This document shows positions 3,458-18,801 of a stretch of DNA of 64,000 nt, one piece after another. The stretch is taken from assembly GCF_026210795.1 (NCBI RefSeq), contig NC_089452.1:62001-126000 (forward strand). Reading direction: 5' to 3'. Both the position numbers and the translations under genes were made by a program. Origin of the DNA: Rhizophagus irregularis (lineage: Eukaryota > Glomeromycota > Glomeromycetes > Glomerales > Glomeraceae). The notes beneath the pieces were generated by a model. It saw only the letters and a program-made list of their open reading frames with translations, did not search any database and was not told the origin of the DNA. The stretch's first letter is position 1, and every line of letters starts with the position of its first letter.

Positions 3458-3905
3458 TATTAAGGTATTTTTTCAATTTAGTTAATAATATAATAATATA
3501 ATTTTATGACAACTATTAAAATTTTTTAAAAAATAAATTTAGACATAATGCAAATAAGGGTTGTCGTACTTGTAAAACTACTAAAGAATCATTGAGTGCT
3601 CACAATCAGGATATCGTAATAACATTACGTTATCATCATATTACAGACGAAGAAATCTTAAAAATTTCTCATGAGACTATAATGTCAAGAAGAGATCAAC
3701 TTTGTACAGAATATGGTTTACGATCATTACCTAGTATTTTAGATAAATTAAAAAGGGAAAGACATTTACATACGCCGCAGGATGTTTATCATGCGACTGC
3801 AGGAAAGATATGGCGGCTACTAAAATTAACTTGTGAATTATTTTCACAAGAAGAAGAAGATAATTTTATCAAAATTTGGAAAAATTTTGAAATCCCAAAA
3901 AGATG

Positions 3906-6834: not shown

Positions 6835-7096
6835 AAAATGTCAAATATTTTGTAATATTAATTCAATGTTAATACGACATCACTACGATGTGATTACGAT
6901 ATCAAATAAAATGTCAAATATTTTGTAATATTAATTCAATATTAATACGACATTACTACGATGTGGTTACGATATCAAATAGATGTAAAATATTTTTGCA
7001 ATATTAATTCGATGTTAATATGATATCACTACGATGTGGTTACGATATCAAATAAAATGTCAAATATTTTGTAATATTAATTCAATGTTAATACGA
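6835..7096 (+). repeat. 73-bp satellite, left flank of LTR element
   Basis: Units begin near 6835, 6908, 6980 and 7054 (period 73-74) and contain taatattaattcaatgttaa and acgacatcactacgatgtg. The array is broken at ...atacga (7096) by the LTR retrotransposon and resumes at 18541 with acgacatgg, so the element inserted inside one unit. Confidence 0.88.
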
Positions 7097-8190
7097 TGTA
7101 AACGGTCGAATATCAAGCATGAAATATGATAAAATTCAACCACCAAATGTAATTGCCAAATATCAAGAACAAACAAATTAATGGTGAATCGGCGTAGACG
7201 GATAAATAATTAGCCGAAAAGGATAAACATTTAGGAAGAGTAATGATCTACATGATGTAATATTTATCAAATGATTGACAAGGAACCAATAGGATAATTA
7301 GAGTCGATCAATTGCGGCTTAGCAATCTTTAACAATAAGAACAATTAGAAAGAATAATTATAAGCCACAAAAGATAGATTATAAGCGAAACACATAAAGT
7401 AAGTTAAAAGAACATATAAAATAATGTCAGAAAAATTAAAGAACATAAAATAATATAAAAGATAATATAAAAAGATAGTATAAAGATGGAACGTAAAAGA
7501 TAATATATTAAAAAGAACATATATAAAAAGATAATATATTAAAAAGAATATATAAAAGATAGCATATTAGAAAATAGCGTATTTAAAATATAGATAGTAT
7601 ATTAGAAAGATAGTTCAAAGATAATATGTAAAAGAACATAAAAGATAGTATATAGATAGAATAGAAAGTAGTGTAAATTTGTATAAATAGAGAACGGAAT
7701 TCAAAGTAATTCCACAGTTCTCATCCACAGAACTCAATAAAAATATAAGTTTCATTTAATTATTCGTTAGTAAAGTTTAATATTAATTAAAGGTAATAGG
7801 TTCGCCCTAAACTTTAATTAATGTTCGCTTAATTAATTTTAATTGAATAAAATGGAAATTTTAAGATGAATTAAATATACGCTTTTGAAAAGTAATAATT
7901 CGTAGCGAGAGCTATTGAAGTTTGAAATTAAAGGTAAAAGTGGATATAATTTGGGGAAAATTTAGAGAAGTTAAATTTTATTTTATATCGTTCAACGTTT
8001 TATATTACTAACGCTATTTATGTCGTGAACCAAGAATGTTGTTGTATGTTGTTCGTTGTTTATGTTGTTTGATAATTATGCTGTTCGTTTATTTGTTCGT
8101 TCGTTCGTTTATTCGTTCGTTTGACCATGGGAATGCCCGTTCGACGTGGCAACTCTGTAAATTGATGACAGAGGGAATTGGGGGATCTCA
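7097..8190 (+). repeat. 5' LTR
   Basis: 1094 bp, TG...CA, matching 17447-18540 except for four transitions. It contains a TATA box at 7682-7690, a polyadenylation-like AATAAA at 7736-7741, and a (TTCG)n-like stretch near 8095-8130. Confidence 0.96.
7682..7741 (+). promoter_or_regulatory. LTR core promoter and polyadenylation signal
   Basis: TATAAATAG (7682-7690), then AATAAA (7736-7741) about 50 bp on, suggests that the transcription start and R region lie just downstream of the TATA box. The same pair is in the 3' LTR at 18032-18040. Confidence 0.55.
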
Positions 8191-9814
8191 TATGGTGCAT
8201 GCTCGCAAGAAAGGAAATGATCATCATCACATGATTATTATGATAAGGAATATGAAAATTTAATTTCGTTAGTAAGTCACTGATAGGTATTATTAATCAA
8301 TATTTTATTTTAGAATTTATTTTTAGATTTCAGATTTTGACGAGTTCAAAAGGAACCAATAAATCAATAAGAATTTAATTGAGTCAAAAACTTGAAAAGG
8401 CGAAAGATTGGAGTTTGTTGTTGTGCAAGTAATCACTTAATTGAGAGAAAGCACAAGAATATTTCTTTCGGGAATAAAGTACCTGAGAAATTTCATAAGG
8501 AGATGGGGAAGTGAAAGATGAATTTTGGAATAAAGATTAATAATGGGAGAACACCAATGTATTATCCGGGGTTCATCTGTGTGGTATGGGTTACCTCTGA
8601 GTTTGAATTTTGGATAAATGCTCGAGATTGGAAAATTTTTATTCTTCGACATTAAAGATTATAATGTATGGGTTACGTCAAATCTGGATACCCAGCTCAA
8701 TAATGCGCAAATTGCTTTGGGGACGGGGAATAAAAATTGTAAAGACACCTACTATCAAGAAACATTGAAAGAATAAAATAGGACAAACCTGTAAACTATC
8801 ATGCTTTTACCCAATGGGAAAAAGATAGAGATAAGCCCAGTATAGGTCCACCAATTTGAGGAAAGATAAGTTGGTTTAGATGAGTTTTATGGATAGCTGA
8901 TGACTTTTGAAACTGGATTTTGAAAGGTTAGATTCACCCGTTAAGAGACAAGTCGGCCAACGAAGGAGGAAAAAATGGATACGTTGTATTGTTACAGGTC
9001 CTAGGCTACATTTCAGATGAAGGTTCCTGGTGTAGTGTCCTAGTTCACGCTCTCATTACAATGTTCCGTTAAAAGAAGATAAAATAGAAGGATATTTACA
9101 CATTAACGAGCCGTATAATGAATATTACGTGCAGTATTTAATAATAGAGTAAAATCCGAAAAGAAGGACATTTATTTAAAAGAAGAACATTTATTTGAAA
9201 AAGAATATTTATTTGAAAAAGAACATTTATTTGAAAAGAAGGACATTTATCTGAAAAGAACGACATTTATCTGAAAAGAACGACATTTTGTGTATCATAG
9301 ATTAATTTATATAATATAGAATATATAGTAAGAAGGATTTATGTGGACGATAAGAAAGATTGGAAATTCGCAAACTTTAAAAGTTATGAAAATTTCGGAG
9401 TTTGTGATATGTGAAATTATGGATCTTGGTGACAAAAAAAAAAAAAAAAGATGTGATAAGTGAAATTATGAATCATGGTGACAAAAGAAGTGATATGTGA
9501 AATTATGAATATCGGTGATAAAAGATAAACTTTGTGGCGCAGTAAAAACCTCCGCAGACTGAGGAGATCGTGGACTTAGAATAATTTTTGAAATTTTGAG
9601 GCGCAGTAAAAATTAATAGTAAAATATGGCGTAGCGAATATATAGAACTGAAAGATGGAATCTAAAGATTGAAAGAAGTAATCTATTTAAAGATAAAAGA
9701 ATGTTTAGAAGATCAAAAATAGAAACAATAAGAGTGAAATATATATATATAGAGAGATAGGAATCCGATTGAGATTCTGGATGGATATTCATAGCAATTT
9801 AACTAAAGCATACA
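8191..9814 (+). other. Retrotransposon leader, 1.6 kb, non-coding
   Basis: Between the 5' LTR and the Gag start. It begins ta-tggtgcatgctcgc (candidate tRNA primer site; I could not match a tRNA). Degenerate repeats are present: gaacatttatttgaaaa units at about 9165-9290 and gtgaaattatgaat(c/a)tggtga units at about 9405-9530. No convincing ORF. Confidence 0.65.
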
Positions 9815-12800
9815 ATGGAATGGTACCATCAATGGGAAAGTGAATATAGAACACATAAAGAGGAACACGAACTAGGAACAGAAGAATTGGACGAATGTTT
9901 AAATTGTGAATTGTGTCATCCGATAGTAAATGAACCAATAGTGTTCAAGAAATTTTGGGACGCATTATTTAAATTTGAAGATGCAATAATAATATATAAT
10001 GATGTAACAATTAAAGGATTATTAGATTTATTAAGTATGGATAATTCAGAAAGAGAAGATACAATACATAAGGGGAAATGTAGAGACATAATGGATAGAA
10101 TAACGGAGTCAATAAGATATAGGATACAACCAAAAATAAAAGAAAAGAGATTACGAACGATCATATTAGTGATTGTAAGGGATTGTATTGAAAGAAATCT
10201 GGGGAATGAAGTATTTGATAGATTAATTGGAAATCCTGAATTAATAGAACACAAATATATTTTGGAAGATTGGGATGTTGAAAGAAGGTTTGAGAAATTT
10301 TGGCAATGGTATAGAATCACATCGAAAGAAGTTGGACCATTACGAGTAAAGATGGGAGCAATAAAGACATTTAGAGAATTACTATATGAAGAAGAAGGAA
10401 TAGCTATGAATGAGGAGAAAGTAAAGGAACTAATGTCCGATATAGAATATGAGAACATAAATATAGAAAATGTTCACGAATATCACAAGAATATGGTACA
10501 AAAGATAATAAGAATATTTATAGATACTAGGAGTTTTACAAAAGAACCAGAAGATTCAGAAAGTGAAGATAGTCCAGCAAGTTACGAATTAGAAAATAGT
10601 TCTGAGGAAGAATTAGAGATAATAATAGGAGACAAATCATGGAAATTTAGTGAATTAAAAAGAAGGACAAGTTCTATGGATGAAGATCAATTGAGGTACA
10701 TTTGGAAGATAGGAATAAAGTTGATGATAGAAATGGATATATTGGTAACGAAAACATTTATAGATAAAGTCCAAGAGATAGGGGAAATGGATGAAAGGGA
10801 AAAAGAATTGAAGATAAGGGAATGGTTAGAAAAAGAAACAGTAATATGTAAAAGATGCGGTAATAGAAGGTTCGAAATGGACAAAACAGATAATGAATGT
10901 AGGGAATGTATTAAAGAAATGCAGAAAGATGAACAAGATGAGTTAGCAGAATTAAAAGATGAGATAGAAAAGTTAGGATATGAAATAGATGTATCAGAAA
11001 TTCAAAGAATGAAGAGTTTTGGAGTAAATAATCGAATATTAATAACAGAAGAATTTATAATGGAATATATGGGAATAATAGAATTGGAAGATAAAGAATT
11101 AAGAAGAGAAATTCATAAGTGGTTAAATGAGAATACAACTTGGTGCGAAAGGTGCGAAATAAGATGGATGAATAATATGTTTAGATTTGGAGGAACTGTA
11201 TGCAAAGATTGTGAAGAAGAAGATGTTGATGAAATTGATGATCGAGTAAAGAGATTGCAAAAGATTTTTGAAGATATTGGAACAATGATAACTGAAGAAG
11301 AATTGTTAAGATTAACTAGTATGGGATATACAGACGGAGAAATTTTAGATAAAGAATTTATTGAAATCTTTCAAGAAAATAAGAATGAGTCGGAAAAAGA
11401 ATTGAAGAAAAAGTTAGATAAGTTGTTGAAAGAACAAGCAGGAATAATAGATAGTGAAGAAAGTGGTGAAAAGAGTGATAATGAAGAATCAGAAGAAGAT
11501 AATACAGATGATTCAGAAAAGACTGGAGAAATATTAAGTTCGGATGAAATATGGGATGAAAATATTGAAAATTTTAATGAAGAAGAATTTGAAGATGAAA
11601 TTGAAAATGTTATAAATAGAGGAGATATTGACTTAAGTCAAAACTCAGATACGAATAGTTCATTAAATATTAAAAATTCTGACAACGAAAGTGAATTATC
11701 TGATTACAATTTACGAGATTTATTTCAAGAGAATATATTGAATATGGCAACCGAGAATCAAATAAAAAGAGTAATAGAGAACGCTTTAGGTTATCCAGCT
11801 AATACTTTGAATGCAGCAATAGGAGCAGGAGCGAGTTTGATAGATAGAATTGAAAATGCAGGGAATGAAGCAGGAGGAATGGTTAGTGTACCACTCTTTT
11901 ATGGAAAAGAAGACGAAGATGTTAACGATTGGGTTAGACAATTTGAGGTAGCATTTACAGCAGTCGGAAAAGCAGCAGGAGCTAATGGTGTAAGACAAGC
12001 GGCATACGCAGCAGCACATTTAAGAGGGGCAGCATCACAATGGTATAATGAAATGAAAGAAGTAAATGCAGGTAACTTAGTGAATTGGGCGGATGCAGAT
12101 AATGATAATGATTTAAAGCATAGAATAAAAAGGAGATTTACTAGAGAGGATGTCAGAAGAAAGAAAATGCAAGAATTAAGAAAAATTCGACAAGGAAAAA
12201 ATGAAAATGTTGAGGAATACACAGGAAGATTTAGACAAATATTAAGGATAGCAACTAGAGGACATGCCTTAGCAGATGATTGTCAAGTAGATTATTATAT
12301 TGATGGATTGGAACCAGCAATAGGGTATCAAATTAGAAGACAGAATCCGGGGAACTTAAATGGGGCAATAGAAATGGCAGAAAGAGAAGAAAGTGCAAGG
12401 GACGAATTTTATAGGAAAACAATAGGTTTACCAGTTAGTACAAAGATAGACATCGGAAGAGATGATAATAGACAAAATATGTTCACAAAACCATTGAACG
12501 AAAATTATGAGGACGAATTAGTCAAAGCGTTTGAGGAAAAGGCAAGAATTAGTAAATTAGAAGGACTGGTATCAAATATAGAGAGAAGATTAAATAATGA
12601 TAATAATAGGTATCGATCAAATATGGGAAGGAGATTAAATGATGGTAATAGGAATAGTTATCAATCAAATCAAAAAAGGGTACCGACATGCTATACATTT
12701 GGTAGAGTCGGTCATTATTCAAGAGAGTGCCCGGAGAAAAGAAGGAATGCAAGAGTAAATATGATGGACGAATATGATGACCAAGAAGAATATGATTATA

Positions 12801-13123
12801 ACGGATATGAAGATGAGGAACCACAATACGGTGAAATGTATTATACACAAGGTTATTACGATGATTATGAAGATAGGGAATTGAATTATTATAATGAATT
12901 ATACGCAAAAGATAACGCAGTAAAAGGAAGAAGACAAACGAGGAGAACGAGTCCAATAGTGGGATATAAAAATAATAATGAAGAAGGAAATTTACAAGAA
13001 GAATTAAGAGAAGCGGGAAATAGAATGGATGATAGAGAAATACCAAGTGGAACAACAACACGCCCGAAAGGACAGAACAAAATAATGTACACAGAGATAG
13101 TCAAAATTGGGATAATCCAATAG
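9815..13123 (+). CDS. Gag polyprotein with long N-terminal zinc-ribbon extension
   Basis: 1102 residues. The C-terminal half (from about M644, nt 11744) is a Ty3-type Gag: a capsid-like helical region with VPLFYGKEDEDVNDWV and the RRFTREDVRRKKMQEL block, then a CCHC-knuckle position at about 959. The knuckle reads C-Y-T-F-GRVGH-YSRE-C, so its second Cys is Phe. The N-terminal 640 residues are not normal Gag. They contain three diverged repeats (about 291-365, 393-466, 494-542); the first two end in a C-x2-C...C-x2-C zinc ribbon (C345/C348/C362/C365 and C444/C447/C463/C466). An acidic Ser/Glu/Asp-rich linker (about 545-640) follows. The tail is Asp/Glu/Tyr-rich. Whether translation starts at 9815 or a second protein starts at M644 cannot be told. 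Confidence 0.88.
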   Translation: MEWYHQWESEYRTHKEEHELGTEELDECLNCELCHPIVNEPIVFKKFWDALFKFEDAIIIYNDVTIKGLLDLLSMDNSEREDTIHKGKCRDIMDRITESIRYRIQPKIKEKRLRTIILVIVRDCIERNLGNEVFDRLIGNPELIEHKYILEDWDVERRFEKFWQWYRITSKEVGPLRVKMGAIKTFRELLYEEEGIAMNEEKVKELMSDIEYENINIENVHEYHKNMVQKIIRIFIDTRSFTKEPEDSESEDSPASYELENSSEEELEIIIGDKSWKFSELKRRTSSMDEDQLRYIWKIGIKLMIEMDILVTKTFIDKVQEIGEMDEREKELKIREWLEKETVICKRCGNRRFEMDKTDNECRECIKEMQKDEQDELAELKDEIEKLGYEIDVSEIQRMKSFGVNNRILITEEFIMEYMGIIELEDKELRREIHKWLNENTTWCERCEIRWMNNMFRFGGTVCKDCEEEDVDEIDDRVKRLQKIFEDIGTMITEEELLRLTSMGYTDGEILDKEFIEIFQENKNESEKELKKKLDKLLKEQAGIIDSEESGEKSDNEESEEDNTDDSEKTGEILSSDEIWDENIENFNEEEFEDEIENVINRGDIDLSQNSDTNSSLNIKNSDNESELSDYNLRDLFQENILNMATENQIKRVIENALGYPANTLNAAIGAGASLIDRIENAGNEAGGMVSVPLFYGKEDEDVNDWVRQFEVAFTAVGKAAGANGVRQAAYAAAHLRGAASQWYNEMKEVNAGNLVNWADADNDNDLKHRIKRRFTREDVRRKKMQELRKIRQGKNENVEEYTGRFRQILRIATRGHALADDCQVDYYIDGLEPAIGYQIRRQNPGNLNGAIEMAEREESARDEFYRKTIGLPVSTKIDIGRDDNRQNMFTKPLNENYEDELVKAFEEKARISKLEGLVSNIERRLNNDNNRYRSNMGRRLNDGNRNSYQSNQKRVPTCYTFGRVGHYSRECPEKRRNARVNMMDEYDDQEEYDYNGYEDEEPQYGEMYYTQGYYDDYEDRELNYYNELYAKDNAVKGRRQTRRTSPIVGYKNNNEEGNLQEELREAGNRMDDREIPSGTTTRPKGQNKIMYTEIVKIGIIQ

Positions 13124-13455
13124 GACCAGAAAATTATAATTATGGTCGTCGACCCATGACAAAAGACGGAAGATTTTATAAACCAATGTTCACAAGAGAA
13201 GGCAAAGTATTTTACCCTGGAATGCGGCAAGACGAATCTGGAAATTGGGCTAGAACAAAGCCATCAGGATCAGGAAAGCCCAGAGAATATGGACCGAGAT
13301 TAACTGATGAAATACCACCTTACGACATTGTGGGAGACGTGAAAAATTGTAGAGCGAATATAACATTTGGTCAAATAATAAATGAGAATCCTAGGTATCA
13401 TAAACAATTGAGAGAAGGAACATATAGACCAAGAAGTATGAGCGAAAAAAATTGA
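13036..13455 (+). CDS. Gag-Pol linker in the -1 frame
   Basis: An open frame beginning after the TAG at 13033-13035, overlapping the Gag end in the -1 frame and ending at TGA 13453-13455. From 13087 it reads as natural protein (RDSQNWDNPIGPENYN, PPYDIVGDVKNCRANITFGQ). The latter block commonly precedes the protease in this group of fungal Ty3 elements. The same frame continues after the TGA into the protease, so one stop separates linker and protease. It is probably reached from Gag by a -1 shift between 13036 and 13123, but I see no clear slippery heptamer. Confidence 0.6.
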   Translation, partial: RNTKWNNNTPERTEQNNVHRDSQNWDNPIGPENYNYGRRPMTKDGRFYKPMFTREGKVFYPGMRQDESGNWARTKPSGSGKPREYGPRLTDEIPPYDIVGDVKNCRANITFGQIINENPRYHKQLREGTYRPRSMSEKN

Positions 13456-13464
13456 CTACACTCG

Positions 13465-13968
13465 GTGGAAACTATGAAAAATGAGGAAAAAAGAACTACA
13501 GCAATGAGAACAGAATTGGAAGTTGAAGATCAACTAGTGAATGTAATAATAGATACTGGAGCAGCAGTAAGTGTGATAACAGATAAATTAAGAAGAAGAT
13601 TGAATATACCTATATTTGGAAAAAGTAAATTTAGATGTACAATAGCAAATGGGCAAAAGATAGCAGCGTTAGGAAAGGCGAATATAACTTTGAGATACAA
13701 AGATGAATTAGAAATACTGAAAGAAGTTGAAGTAATCGATTCAGAAGAAGAGGATCTAATTTTGGGAAATGACATATGGAAGTTGTATAATGCAAAAATA
13801 AATTTTGAAGATCATACCTTAAGAATAGAAGAACAGGGAGAAGTAATAACGATTCCAGTAGGATACGAAAGGGAAGTAGTATATGAAAGTGAGGAGAGCG
13901 AGGACGACGAAGAATATGAAAGTAACGATGAAGGAGAGGTATTCAGAATGCACCAGAATTTTAAATAG
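13465..13968 (+). CDS. Retropepsin-type aspartic protease
   Basis: 167 residues from the first ATG; in the same frame as the upstream linker. The active-site motif I-I-D-T-G-A-A has its Asp at residue 30 (nt 13552). A second conserved block, LILGNDIW, lies near residue 96, as in Ty3-type proteases. An acidic tail follows. It would cleave Gag and Pol during particle maturation. It ends at TAG 13966-13968 and the next block is in another frame. Confidence 0.85.
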   Translation: METMKNEEKRTTAMRTELEVEDQLVNVIIDTGAAVSVITDKLRRRLNIPIFGKSKFRCTIANGQKIAALGKANITLRYKDELEILKEVEVIDSEEEDLILGNDIWKLYNAKINFEDHTLRIEEQGEVITIPVGYEREVVYESEESEDDEEYESNDEGEVFRMHQNFK

Positions 13969-14003
13969 AGAGTCTTGGCTCTGAAGAGAGAGAGACGGAA
14001 AAG

Positions 14004-14178
14004 ATGCTAGAACCAAGTGAAAAATTTATGCAAAAACTAAGTATAGGGGAAGTAGAAGAACCAATTTGGGAAAATATGATAAAATTACTATTAGAATACC
14101 AAGATATTTTGGAATACGACGAGGAAATAGAAGGAAGAACAAAAGCAGCGCAGCATGAGATAAAGATAAAAGAGGGGT
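14004..14178 (+). pseudogene. Protease-RT connector, frame-shifted
   Basis: Starts MLEPSEKF and ends AAQHEIKIKEG then TAG. Ty3 RTs normally read H-x-I-x-T-G-x-x-x-P-I-x-Q-R-x-Y here. The second half of that motif (VEPIKQRRYKE) is present one frame away, starting at about 14177, at a run of four Gs (gaggggtag). One missing G would join the two. I read this as a one-base deletion or a sequencing error in a homopolymer; recoding is possible. Confidence 0.65.
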
Positions 14179-16084
14179 AGAACCAATAAAGCAAAGAAGA
14201 TACAAAGAAACAGATGAAAAGGCAAAATTTATAAGCGAAGAAGTGGATAAATTGTTGAAACAAGGAAGGATAAGGAAATCAAAAAGTCCATGGAGTTCAC
14301 CTGTTACATTAGCAGGAAAGAAAATGGGAAAATATAGATTCTGTATTGATTACAGAAAGTTAAACAAGATAACTATAATGGATAGTTTTCCTTTACCAAG
14401 AATGGATGAATTATTAGACAAATATAGAAAAGCAAAATGGATTTCAAGTATAGATCTAGCGGCAGGATTTAATCAGGTAGAAATGAAAGAAGAAGACAAA
14501 GAAAAAACAGCATTTGTATGTTCGAAAGGATTGTTTGAATATAATGTAATGCCATTCGGTTTAACGAATGCACCAGCAACATTTCAAAGATTAATGGATG
14601 AAATATTAGAAGAATACATAAACGATTTTGTAGTAGTATATATTGACGATATCATGATATATTCAGAAAATTTAAAAGACCATATGGAACATGTGGAAAA
14701 AGTATTAAAGAAGTTACAGGAGAATAATTTAATAATAAAATTAAAGAAATGCAGATTTTTGGAAAGAAACATAGAATTTTTAGGACATATAGTAGGAAAT
14801 GATGGATTAAGGCCAGACGATAAGAAGATAGAAAAAATAAAAGAAATGAAGGCACCAACAACAGTGAAAGAAGTAAGATCATTTTTGGGACTTTGTTCAT
14901 ATTACAGAAAATTTGTGAAGAATTTTTCAAAGATAGCAAGACCAATAAGTGATTTGAGAAAGAAGGGAATACCTTTCATTTGGGGAAGAGAACAACAAGA
15001 AGCGTTTGAAAAGTTGAAAGAAAAGTTAATACAATATCCAATATTGCGACATCCAGATTGGAAGAAAGAATTTCTATTGATAACAGATGCATCAGGAAAA
15101 GGATTAGGTGCAGTATTAAGCCAAAAAGACGAAAAAGGAAAAGAAGTAGTAATAGCATATGCAAGTAGAAGTTTATTACCAGCAGAAGAGAATTATCCGA
15201 TAACAGAATTGGAATGTTTAGGAATAGTTTGGGGAATTCAACATTTTCATAAATATTTGATCGATAGAAAATTTAAAGTAATAACAGATCACAATGCATT
15301 AAAAGGATTAATGAATGCAAAGATACTGAAAGGAAAAAGAGCAAGATGGGTAATGGAATTACAGCAATATAATTTTGAAGTAATACATAGATCAGGAAAA
15401 GAAAATACGAATGCTGACGCATTAAGTAGGTTATTAAAGATAGTAGAGGACCAACCAGAAATAGTAATAATTGATGGAGTAGATGGATTAGGGAAAACAA
15501 GTATAGTACAAAATTTAATTAAAGAGTGGGAAAAGCAAGGATTAAAAGTAAGATTCAACACTTATAAGAGAAGAAGAAAAGATAAAGATGAATTTTATGA
15601 ATCAAAGATGGAGACAGAATGGAAATTTAGAAAAGAAGTAGTAGAACAAATAAACAGAAGAATGTTAGAATATGATGAAGATACAGATATAATAATTTTA
15701 GACAAATCACCATATTGCGAATATTATTATCAAAAGACGAAAAGTTTTGACAGAGGATTAATTACTCCACATGGAAATCATGAGATGGAAAAAGAAATAT
15801 TCAGATTGAAAGAAATGATAGATAAATCAATAGTGATATTTTTAGAAAAAGATGGCGATGTATGTTGGAAAAATTACATCGGAAGAGAAACAAAGAAAAC
15901 GGAAAAATCATCATATCCAACACTAAAGAAGGATGAATATCTGGACATGGTTAAAATGTTTGAAGAAAATCAGAGTGTGTACAAAGATACCAAAAGATAC
16001 AGTCGGGTAAAAGTTAAAAATGACAATAATAGTTGGAGAAAAGTATTTAAAGAGGTGGAGAAATGGAGAAGAGCACAGGACTAA
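14177..16084 (+). CDS. Reverse transcriptase - RNase H - thymidylate-kinase-like fusion
   Basis: Open from about 14177 (first ATG 14243, residue numbers from there, 613 residues). RT: SIDLAAGFNQ (D71), MPFGLTNAPATFQ, YIDDIMIYS (D135, D136). RNase H: ITDASGKGLGAV (D282), TELECLGIVW and ITDHNALKG, ending at ADALSRLL near residue 398. Then, with no stop, comes a P-loop kinase domain of about 200 residues: IVIIDGVDGLGKTS (Walker A, G412-T419, K418), IIILDKSPYCEYYYQ (D487-K-S, the position of the DR[YS] motif of thymidylate and deoxynucleoside kinases), then a hydrophobic strand IVIFLEKD and a basic LID-like GRETKKTEK. The family would phosphorylate dTMP or a deoxynucleoside. Activity and substrate are inferences. 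Confidence 0.92.
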   Translation, partial: VEPIKQRRYKETDEKAKFISEEVDKLLKQGRIRKSKSPWSSPVTLAGKKMGKYRFCIDYRKLNKITIMDSFPLPRMDELLDKYRKAKWISSIDLAAGFNQVEMKEEDKEKTAFVCSKGLFEYNVMPFGLTNAPATFQRLMDEILEEYINDFVVVYIDDIMIYSENLKDHMEHVEKVLKKLQENNLIIKLKKCRFLERNIEFLGHIVGNDGLRPDDKKIEKIKEMKAPTTVKEVRSFLGLCSYYRKFVKNFSKIARPISDLRKKGIPFIWGREQQEAFEKLKEKLIQYPILRHPDWKKEFLLITDASGKGLGAVLSQKDEKGKEVVIAYASRSLLPAEENYPITELECLGIVWGIQHFHKYLIDRKFKVITDHNALKGLMNAKILKGKRARWVMELQQYNFEVIHRSGKENTNADALSRLLKIVEDQPEIVIIDGVDGLGKTSIVQNLIKEWEKQGLKVRFNTYKRRRKDKDEFYESKMETEWKFRKEVVEQINRRMLEYDEDTDIIILDKSPYCEYYYQKTKSFDRGLITPHGNHEMEKEIFRLKEMIDKSIVIFLEKDGDVCWKNYIGRETKKTEKSSYPTLKKDEYLDMVKMFEENQSVYKDTKRYSRVKVKNDNNSWRKVFKEVEKWRRAQD

Positions 16085-16144
16085 AAATATAGAACATATA
16101 ACGAAAATAACAAATTCGGAAGTAGAATCAATTAAGAAAATACC

Positions 16145-17371
16145 ATGGAAGAAAATAATTACAAGAGTATAATAGACAATATCGAAAAAGAGAATAAGTA
16201 TGAATTGAAAGAGGGAATTTTATATAGAGTGAAAGGACAAAACAAATTTAGAGTAATCAAGGATTATGAATACGAGGGATTAATGTATATGATGCATGAT
16301 AATGAATTATCAGGACATTTTGGAATAGAAGCGACATTAGATAGAATAAAAGAAAATTATTGGTGGAAAAATATGAAGGAAGATGTAGAAGAATATGTAA
16401 GGACATGTTGGAATTGTCAAATGAGAGGAAAACCAAGAGGAAAGAACGAATTGATGCCAATAAAGATAAATGAACCATTTGAAATGATTGGGATAGATAT
16501 AGTTGGACCATTAAAAGAGGCAGAAAAGGGAAATAAGTACATTGTAGTAGCAATGGATTATTTTACGAAATGGCCTGAGGCTGCACCACTAAAAGAAGCT
16601 ACAGCAAAAGAAGTGGTAGAATTTATTTGGAGAGACATAATTTGTAGACATGGATGTCCAAAGAAAATAATTAGCGATAGAGGGACTCACTTTAACAATA
16701 AAATGATGGAGGAATTAGTAGAAAGATGTGGGATAAATCATAGATTAAGTACACCATATAGGCCACAAACAAATGGTTTGGTCGAAAGATTCAATAAAAC
16801 TTTATGCGAAGGATTAGCCAAATTAGGAGAAGAAAACTGGGATAAACATATACCATCCGTATTATTTGCATACAGAACAAAGAAGCAATCGTCAACAAGA
16901 ATTAAACCTTTTTATGCAACATACGGAAGGAGAGCGAAATTACCATTAGACAAAGATGAAAACAAGATAACATTAGCTGATAGAGTAAAAATACTAATTG
17001 AGGAGCTACCAGTAATAAGAAGAAAAATAAAAGAGAACGTGGAAGAAGCTCAAGAAAAACAAAAACAACAACATGACAAAAGAGGAATTAGGAAACTTAA
17101 ATTTGAAATAGGAGAAAAAGTATTATTATACGAAGCGTGGAGAGAAAAACAATGGTCTGGAAAATTACAGAACAAATGGAAAGGACCATATTTAATTCAC
17201 GAAGAATTTGGAAATGGGGCATATAAACTCAAAGAATTGGATGGAAGAATACTAAAAACACCACAAAATGGAGAATGGTTAAAGAAATTTTATGATCGAG
17301 GGAGATTTACACCAAAAATAGTAATTAAAGGAAAAGAGGTATTCGATAAGACCCGAGTTCGATTCGAGTAA
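16145..17371 (+). CDS. Ty3-type integrase with GPY/F module
   Basis: 408 residues. The N-terminal H-H-C-C zinc finger ends in RTCWNC (about residues 50-100). The catalytic core has D118 (GIDIVGP), D178 (ISDRGTHF) and E214 (LVERFNKTL), which gives the exact D,D-35-E spacing. The C-terminal KWKGPYLI...GNGAYKLKELDG is the GPY/F module. No chromodomain follows. It is in the same frame as the RT-kinase block but separated by TAA codons at 16082 and about 16133; the intervening residues look coding in another frame (NIEHITKITNSEVESIKK). So this may be a separate ORF or a broken Pol. Confidence 0.92.
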   Translation: MEENNYKSIIDNIEKENKYELKEGILYRVKGQNKFRVIKDYEYEGLMYMMHDNELSGHFGIEATLDRIKENYWWKNMKEDVEEYVRTCWNCQMRGKPRGKNELMPIKINEPFEMIGIDIVGPLKEAEKGNKYIVVAMDYFTKWPEAAPLKEATAKEVVEFIWRDIICRHGCPKKIISDRGTHFNNKMMEELVERCGINHRLSTPYRPQTNGLVERFNKTLCEGLAKLGEENWDKHIPSVLFAYRTKKQSSTRIKPFYATYGRRAKLPLDKDENKITLADRVKILIEELPVIRRKIKENVEEAQEKQKQQHDKRGIRKLKFEIGEKVLLYEAWREKQWSGKLQNKWKGPYLIHEEFGNGAYKLKELDGRILKTPQNGEWLKKFYDRGRFTPKIVIKGKEVFDKTRVRFE

Positions 17372-17432
17372 AATATTATGGATAAGACACGAGTTCGATT
17401 CTATCAAAGTTATTTGTGAGGTCACAAATAGC

Positions 17433-17446
17433 GAAGAGGGGGATAA
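17433..17446 (+). promoter_or_regulatory. Polypurine tract
   Basis: gaagaggggga directly before the 3' LTR: the expected plus-strand priming site. Confidence 0.8.
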
Positions 17447-18540
17447 TGTAAACGGTCGAATATCAAGCATGAAATATGATAAAATTCAACTACCAAATGT
17501 AATTGCCAAATATCAAGAACGAACAAATTAATGGTGAATCGGCGTAGACGGATAAATAATTAGCCGAAAAGGATAAACATTTAGGAAGAGTAATGATCTA
17601 CATGATGTAATATTTATCAAATGATTGACAAGGAACCAATAGGATAATTAGAGTCGATCAATTGCGGCTTAGCAATCTTTAACAATAAGAACAATTAGAA
17701 AGAATAATTATAAGCCACAAAAGATAGATTATAAGCGAAACACATAAAGCAAGTTAAAAGAACATATAAAATAATGTCAGAAAAATTAAAGAACATAAAA
17801 TAATATAAAAGATAATATAAAAAGATAGTATAAAGATGGAACGTAAAAGATAATATATTAAAAAGAACATATATAAAAAGATAATATATTAAAAAGAATA
17901 TATAAAAGATAGCATATTAGAAGATAGCGTATTTAAAATATAGATAGTATATTAGAAAGATAGTTCAAAGATAATATGTAAAAGAACATAAAAGATAGTA
18001 TATAGATAGAATAGAAAGTAGTGTAAATTTGTATAAATAGAGAACGGAATTCAAAGTAATTCCACAGTTCTCATCCACAGAACTCAATAAAAATATAAGT
18101 TTCATTTAATTATTCGTTAGTAAAGTTTAATATTAATTAAAGGTAATAGGTTCGCCCTAAACTTTAATTAATGTTCGCTTAATTAATTTTAATTGAATAA
18201 AATGGAAATTTTAAGATGAATTAAATATACGCTTTTGAAAAGTAATAATTCGTAGCGAGAGCTATTGAAGTTTGAAATTAAAGGTAAAAGTGGATATAAT
18301 TTGGGGAAAATTTAGAGAAGTTAAATTTTATTTTATATCGTTCAACGTTTTATATTACTAACGCTATTTATGTCGTGAACCAAGAATGTTGTTGTATGTT
18401 GTTCGTTGTTTATGTTGTTTGATAATTATGCTGTTCGTTTATTTGTTCGTTCGTTCGTTTATTCGTTCGTTTGACCATGGGAATGCCCGTTCGACGTGGC
18501 AACTCTGTAAATTGATGACAGAGGGAATTGGGGGATCTCA
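17447..18540 (+). repeat. 3' LTR
   Basis: 1094 bp, TG...CA, followed by the target duplication ACGA and then the resumed satellite. TATA at 18032-18040. Confidence 0.96.
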
Positions 18541-18640
18541 ACGACATGGTTACGATATCAAATAAATGTCAAATATTTTTGTAATATTAATTCAATGTTA
18601 ATACGACATCACTACGATGTGATTATGTGATAATATTTAC
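18541..18640 (+). repeat. 73-bp satellite, right flank
   Basis: Continuation of the unit interrupted at 7096: acgacatggttacgatatcaaat, then a further partial unit, which decays after about 18625. Confidence 0.82.
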
Positions 18641-18801
18641 ATCGCATAATGATCGCTGCGATATCGCAGAGATATCGAACTAATCAATGTCGAATAAATA
18701 TAGTTACGACTAACTTAACGACGTTGAATCTATTTTTTATCAAAATATCGTAATGATATCGTAATGATATCATTGCAATATCTAATCAATATCGATTGTA
18801 A

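Follow-up and report, generated by a model that had tools for sequence, protein, structure and literature searches.

A thymidylate-kinase-like domain in the pol region of Ty3-type retrotransposons of Rhizophagus

What is a domain resembling a nucleotide kinase doing in the pol region of a fungal retrotransposon? The question is raised by a stretch of 64,000 nucleotides from the genome of Rhizophagus irregularis, an arbuscular mycorrhizal fungus of the Glomeromycota (NC_089452.1, positions 62,001 to 126,000, forward strand; here, the window), in which a Ty3-type element encodes, between RNase H and integrase, a domain related to the thymidylate kinases (TMKs) and deoxynucleoside kinases (dNKs). 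An earlier note, made from the sequence alone, had proposed that this domain raises the supply of deoxythymidine triphosphate (dTTP) or another deoxynucleoside triphosphate (dNTP) for reverse transcription. Our preferred reading, to which we give a probability of roughly 60%, is that a Rhizophagus Ty3 lineage captured a P-loop kinase of the TMK/dNK type, kept it in pol, with RNase H on one side and integrase on the other, and uses it in the particle to phosphorylate deoxynucleoside monophosphates (dNMPs).

A kinase domain continuous with RNase H

The part of pol that carries the domain is made up as follows (all on the + strand).
14243..15436, + strand: reverse transcriptase (RT) and RNase H (RVT_1, E 2.8e-44; RT_RNaseH, E 1.5e-37)
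15437..16081, + strand: TMK/dNK-like nucleotide kinase domain, 215 amino acids (stop codon 16082-16084)
16145..17371, + strand: integrase open reading frame (ORF) (Integrase_H2C2, E 1.3e-21; rve, E 1.6e-14)

The RT and RNase H scores are far above the Pfam cut-offs, and in the ORF 14243-16084 RNase H runs unbroken into the approximately 210 C-terminal residues that form the kinase. The earlier note had placed RNase H, kinase and integrase in one uninterrupted frame; this holds for RNase H and kinase, but the integrase, although in the same frame, has its own ORF beyond two in-frame stops (16082-16084 and 16133-16135). The motifs it had listed are where it had put them: a Walker A P-loop, GVDGLGKTS, with K418 (ORF numbering), a second motif, LDKSPYCEYYYQ, containing D487-K488-S489, and a basic LID-like segment, GRETKK. 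Its assignment to the TMK/dNK superfamily is borne out by a structure search (Foldseek), in which the predicted P-loop kinase fold was matched across the full domain. Among 36 members of the family, Pfam matches the TMK profile (PF02223) in 29 and the dNK profile in 8. The member P0087 scores 30.2 bits against TMK, above the cut-off of 27. Sequence searches of the Protein Data Bank (PDB) brought up FtsY, adenylate kinase and other proteins, matched at the P-loop, and a kinase profile found three TMK sequences at just E 0.12–0.14 and the yeast TMK at 0.3.

Motif conservation was assessed in the window kinase together with 35 loci fetched from the host genome (36 genomic sequences in all) and in an alignment, A1, of the window kinase with database proteins. 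D16, K20, R45, R47, R65, D89, K90, R150 and K154 are invariant in all 36 genomic kinases. The TMK P-loop pattern Gx[DE]xxGK[ST] is present as GVDGLGKT (D16 and K20 in 36/36, G14 in 35/36), and single database rows of A1 are without G14, D16, G19 or K20. Where TMKs have DR[YFH] and dNKs an E/D-R-S motif, all 36 genomic sequences have DKS, and the lysine is kept in all 34 A1 rows with residues there (the window and 33 database proteins); P0044, which is not in A1, has NK at this position. Because all of these genomic and A1 rows carry it, the lysine for arginine that the earlier note had pointed out is, on comparison of the sequences, a trait of the family and not decay. A basic LID segment belongs to the type II arrangement of thymidylate kinases, and one is present by sequence position rather than coordinates (R150 and K154 in 36/36, K153 in 30/36). 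The basic segment KRRR follows strand 2, with positions 44, 45 and 47 basic in 36/36. In an alignment with Escherichia coli Tmk (15% identity, which makes it uncertain), R65 falls on a Tmk arginine and D16 on the Tmk P-loop glutamate.

Copies in the host genome and selection

A search of the host genome (146.7 Mb in 32 contigs) gave at least 151 kinase matches, some of which are pieces of a single copy; 56 matches, including that in the window, span at least 213 of the 215 residues at ≥94% identity, and 53 of these 56 are free of stops. We fetched 40 regions, 35 with and 5 without the kinase, picked to span the groups and biased to full-length copies. The kinase lies 3′ of RT-RNase H on the same strand in all 35 kinase loci, confirming that the fusion recurs in many insertions, and integrase follows it in 32; of integrase, L019 and L020 retain just the C-terminal end, and the L016 stretch contains none. 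Of the two outcomes that the earlier note had named as refuting it, lack of a structural match and a fusion confined to this copy, neither was observed. Among the loci with frames compared, the RT-RNase H ORF closes with the kinase in L011 (group A), L024 (B), L031 (C) and L039 (its RT part interrupted by a stop), whereas in L042 (E) the kinase begins the integrase ORF and RT-RNase H is in a different frame.

The kinase is under purifying selection. As the earlier note had suggested, the ratio of nonsynonymous to synonymous substitution (dN/dS) was compared across copies by the Nei–Gojobori method (several far comparisons were saturated; rows removed for length, 1/41 for RT-RNase H and 5/41 for integrase). 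Within family A, the kinase and integrase each give 0.07 and RT-RNase H gives 0.03; for the kinase the ratio is also 0.07 within C, and 0.09 between A and B at a synonymous divergence (dS) of 0.75. Divergent lineages, with kinases 54–67% identical to that in the window, keep the motifs.

Exchange of the kinase between element lineages

Element lineages have traded the kinase as a unit. Compared with the window, group B shows 86% identity in the kinase, 68% in RT-RNase H and 59% in integrase, while at the base level L039 is 99% identical to group B in RT-RNase H, 91% in integrase and 70% in the kinase. In steps of 100 bases, L024 and L039 are 98–100% identical throughout the kilobase ending at position 2500; from 2501, where the kinase match starts, identity is 71%; the right edge is gradual (65–78% at 3489-3687, 86–93% to about 4387, ≥95% beyond). 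Trees place B with L039 for both RT-RNase H (100/99) and integrase (100/99), and with A for the kinase (100/100). In approximately unbiased (AU) tests, A with B was rejected for RT-RNase H (p 6e-5) and integrase (p 5e-109); for the kinase, B with L039 (p 4e-64) and B with C and D (p 0.007) were rejected. The groups had been named from identities before the trees, and the AU-tested clades were picked after identities and trees had been seen. Judged by the dS of 0.75 between the kinases of A and B, the sample does not include the donor from which group B took its kinase. The route of exchange is likely to have been template switching between co-packaged RNAs.

Distribution and origin

The nearest named proteins to the window kinase are from R. 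irregularis (up to 98% identity), and the domain occurs in proteins of four named species: R. irregularis, R. clarus, R. diaphanus and Glomus cerebriforme. In R. clarus, P0089 is a single protein of 580 amino acids in the order RNase H, kinase, integrase; in R. diaphanus P0060 just 70 kinase residues were matched, with integrase after them. Some such proteins are already named 'thymidylate kinase' or 'thymidylate kinase-like' in some sources. A profile search of 5.8 billion proteins, in which 8000 candidates were scored and distant kin may be missed, gave 98 matches; those rows named to organism are all Rhizophagus or Glomus cerebriforme. A scan of IMG/VR gave 59 pattern matches, of which none is a relative.

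Two sources of the domain were considered. Judged by motifs, capture of the host TMK (exons in L052) looks less likely: the host gene has GCDKAGKS and DRYAYS, which are unlike the motifs of the element kinase. A phage origin through phrog_761 was dropped because a control showed this profile to be broad (E. coli Tmk, 132 bits; host dNK, 64.6 bits). Against phages, tblastn gave no match for the window kinase, and its relative L037 matched 76 records, all weakly (best E 2e-3). A further TMK-like host gene, L051, has an odd P-loop, GCEDTNTT.

The element and related loci

The rest of the element in the window comprises the following.
7097-18540, + strand: Ty3-type element, from long terminal repeat (LTR) to LTR
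7097..8190, + strand: 5′ LTR, TG...CA, paired with the 3′ LTR
17447..18540, + strand: 3′ LTR, paired with the 5′ LTR
7093-7096 and 18541-18544, both flanks of the element: candidate 4-bp target duplication, ACGA
9815..13123, + strand: Gag ORF, 1102 amino acids (Retrotrans_gag, E 5.5e-13; Ty3_capsid, E 1.3e-9)
13465..13968, + strand: protease ORF (gag-asp_proteas, E 3.3e-9)

With its LTRs, gag and the order protease, RT, RNase H, integrase, this is a Ty3/Gypsy LTR retrotransposon. It is young, as had been claimed: 1091 of 1095 aligned LTR bases are the same and four sites differ (7096-8190 versus 17446-18540). A tandem repeat of about 73 nucleotides surrounds it (6848-7096 and 18504-18679). The Gag ORF has an N-terminal part of about 650 amino acids, then a capsid-like domain and a single CCHC-like zinc knuckle, a weak match under the cut-off (E 0.017). 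The N-terminal part (9815-11770), 5′ of the capsid region, contains repeated CxxC pairs and had no match in Pfam.

Elsewhere, L024 has an extra open frame of 118 amino acids between kinase and integrase (L024 3134-3487, reverse strand). In the kinase-free lineage N2 (L049, L050), the match to RNase H ends 455–458 bases before that to integrase begins (integrase being matched from residue 19); in kinase-free N1 the distance is about 200. In L058 (reverse strand) and L053 an ORF with CxxC and coiled-coil-like features, not RT, precedes the kinase ORF within the 3.1 kb examined, and in L058 integrase accompanies it; these loci are perhaps another element type.

Discussion

How might such a kinase serve the element? 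Pol would be made with the kinase attached, and the kinase would enter the particle with Pol. There it may phosphorylate a deoxynucleotide, the likeliest being a dNMP such as dTMP, and the raised supply would keep reverse transcription from stalling at low dNTPs. An acidic P-loop residue together with a basic residue after strand 2 points to a nucleoside monophosphate (NMP) kinase; because the element kinases combine a P-loop aspartate (glutamate in E. coli Tmk), the invariant KRRR and a helix arginine aligned to that of Tmk, their sequences favour an NMP kinase over a nucleoside kinase.

The strongest competitor, though unlikely, is a deoxynucleoside kinase acting in salvage (deoxynucleoside to dNMP), a family (PF01712; human dCK, dGK) within the same superfamily. 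In dNKs a catalytic glutamate follows strand 2; by position in the alignment, that place is basic in every genomic copy. The P-loop aspartate is as in TMK, and the Pfam counts likewise run against dNK. TMKs themselves (PF02223; E. coli Tmk) share the fold, acidic P-loop residue, basic LID-like segment and aligned helix arginine, and differ in having DR where the element kinase has DK and in the low identity noted above. A catalytically dead or regulatory P-loop domain, structurally needed, is improbable: DK instead of DR in all aligned copies speaks for it, as does the precedent reported for the bovine immunodeficiency virus dUTPase-related gene (accessible text of PMC4261571), but the Walker A lysine, P-loop aspartate and D89 are invariant. 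Slightly less probable still is a nucleic-acid kinase (5′-OH polynucleotide or tRNA-primer kinase) mending complementary DNA (cDNA) ends or primer, suggested by the very basic KRRR and RETKK segments and by polynucleotide kinase annotations of some phage proteins weakly like L037; the full-length match is to small-molecule TMK/dNK structures, no polynucleotide kinase is among the 50 structure matches listed, and other records label these phage genes, or similar ones, thymidylate kinase. A functionless chance capture hitchhiking with the element would fit the five kinase-free loci fetched, but is excluded by the at least 151 genomic matches and dN/dS of 0.07–0.09, well below 1, unless the mainly full-length sampling misleads, and by divergent lineages and four named species retaining the domain.

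Several observations weigh against a dNMP kinase supplying reverse transcription. The window kinase scores 19.4 bits against Pfam TMK, below the cut-off, NCBIfam dTMP kinase models are likewise below theirs, and the generic AAA_14 profile matches 30/36 members, one more than TMK. The first 50 Foldseek rows include 18 that belong to other kinases or P-loop proteins (adenylate kinases, UMP-CMP kinase, PFKFB, NadR, shikimate kinase, tRNA kinase). Departure from the DR motif counts here too, as do the higher kinase dN/dS in B (0.24) and E (0.22), at dS 0.03–0.04. The host has its own TMK and dNK (L061) genes, and therefore the need for a second kinase is not obvious. Lastly, kinase-free lineages exist: in N1 (3 loci) and N2 (2 loci), RNase H and integrase have no kinase between them. 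The element interior (8191-17445) is strongly asymmetric between strands (A 44.1, T 24.3, G 22.1, C 9.5%; outside the element, A 34.7 and T 36.2%), and with 44% A on the + strand much dTTP is therefore needed for first-strand cDNA. The earlier note's appeal to a very AT-rich template is nevertheless not supported, because kinase-free N1 is equally A-rich (47% A in RT-RNase H), and for the same reason A-richness lends no support to dTMP specifically.

A close parallel is the dUTPase of non-primate lentiviruses, encoded in pol between RNase H and integrase and reported to be important in non-dividing cells (accessible text of PMC4531489). As described there, it is likewise a dTTP-pathway enzyme in the same pol place. 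A dUTPase hydrolyses dUTP, whereas the Rhizophagus domain is of the P-loop kinase type and belongs to a fungal Ty3 element that has its ORFs separate. The dUTPase fold is unrelated to the P-loop kinase fold, and no dUTPase family is among the Pfam matches of the window element. LTR retrotransposons of fungi (Postia, Phanerochaete, Tuber) and bdelloid rotifers also carry a captured nucleotide-metabolism enzyme, dUTPase, placed, in the accessible text, at either Pol end or between protease and RT and with no kinase; the word 'kinase' is absent from the main text of both reports (PMC2864245, PMC5408684). Plant and oomycete retrotransposons with an additional RNase H, whose authors inferred independent acquisition (accessible text of PMC5348765), similarly acquired an enzyme domain, but duplicate an existing activity where the Rhizophagus kinase adds nucleotide metabolism. 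A search of titles and abstracts, with most subscription papers and preprints outside it, found no fusion of a thymidylate or nucleoside kinase to a retrotransposon, and the searchable text of two R. irregularis transposon papers (PMC8647823, PMC11075540) does not contain 'thymidylate'. Captured nucleotide-metabolism enzymes are already known in retroelements; a nucleotide kinase as retrotransposon cargo seems to have no earlier report among those found.

Retroelements draw their dNTPs from the host cell, which can hold such elements in check by reducing the dNTP level (SAMHD1). At about even odds, the Ty3 deoxynucleotide kinase of Rhizophagus is a swappable cassette that would produce precursors of dNTPs where reverse transcription takes place in low-dNTP nuclei or hyphae, its alleles traded by recombination. 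In the literature found, as far as its accessible text extends, dUTPase is the sole dNTP-pathway enzyme captured by retroelements. If a kinase encoded in pol is conserved by selection and passes between lineages in one piece, this would point to dNTP supply as a limit on retrotransposition in these coenocytic fungi, a proposition open to direct test.
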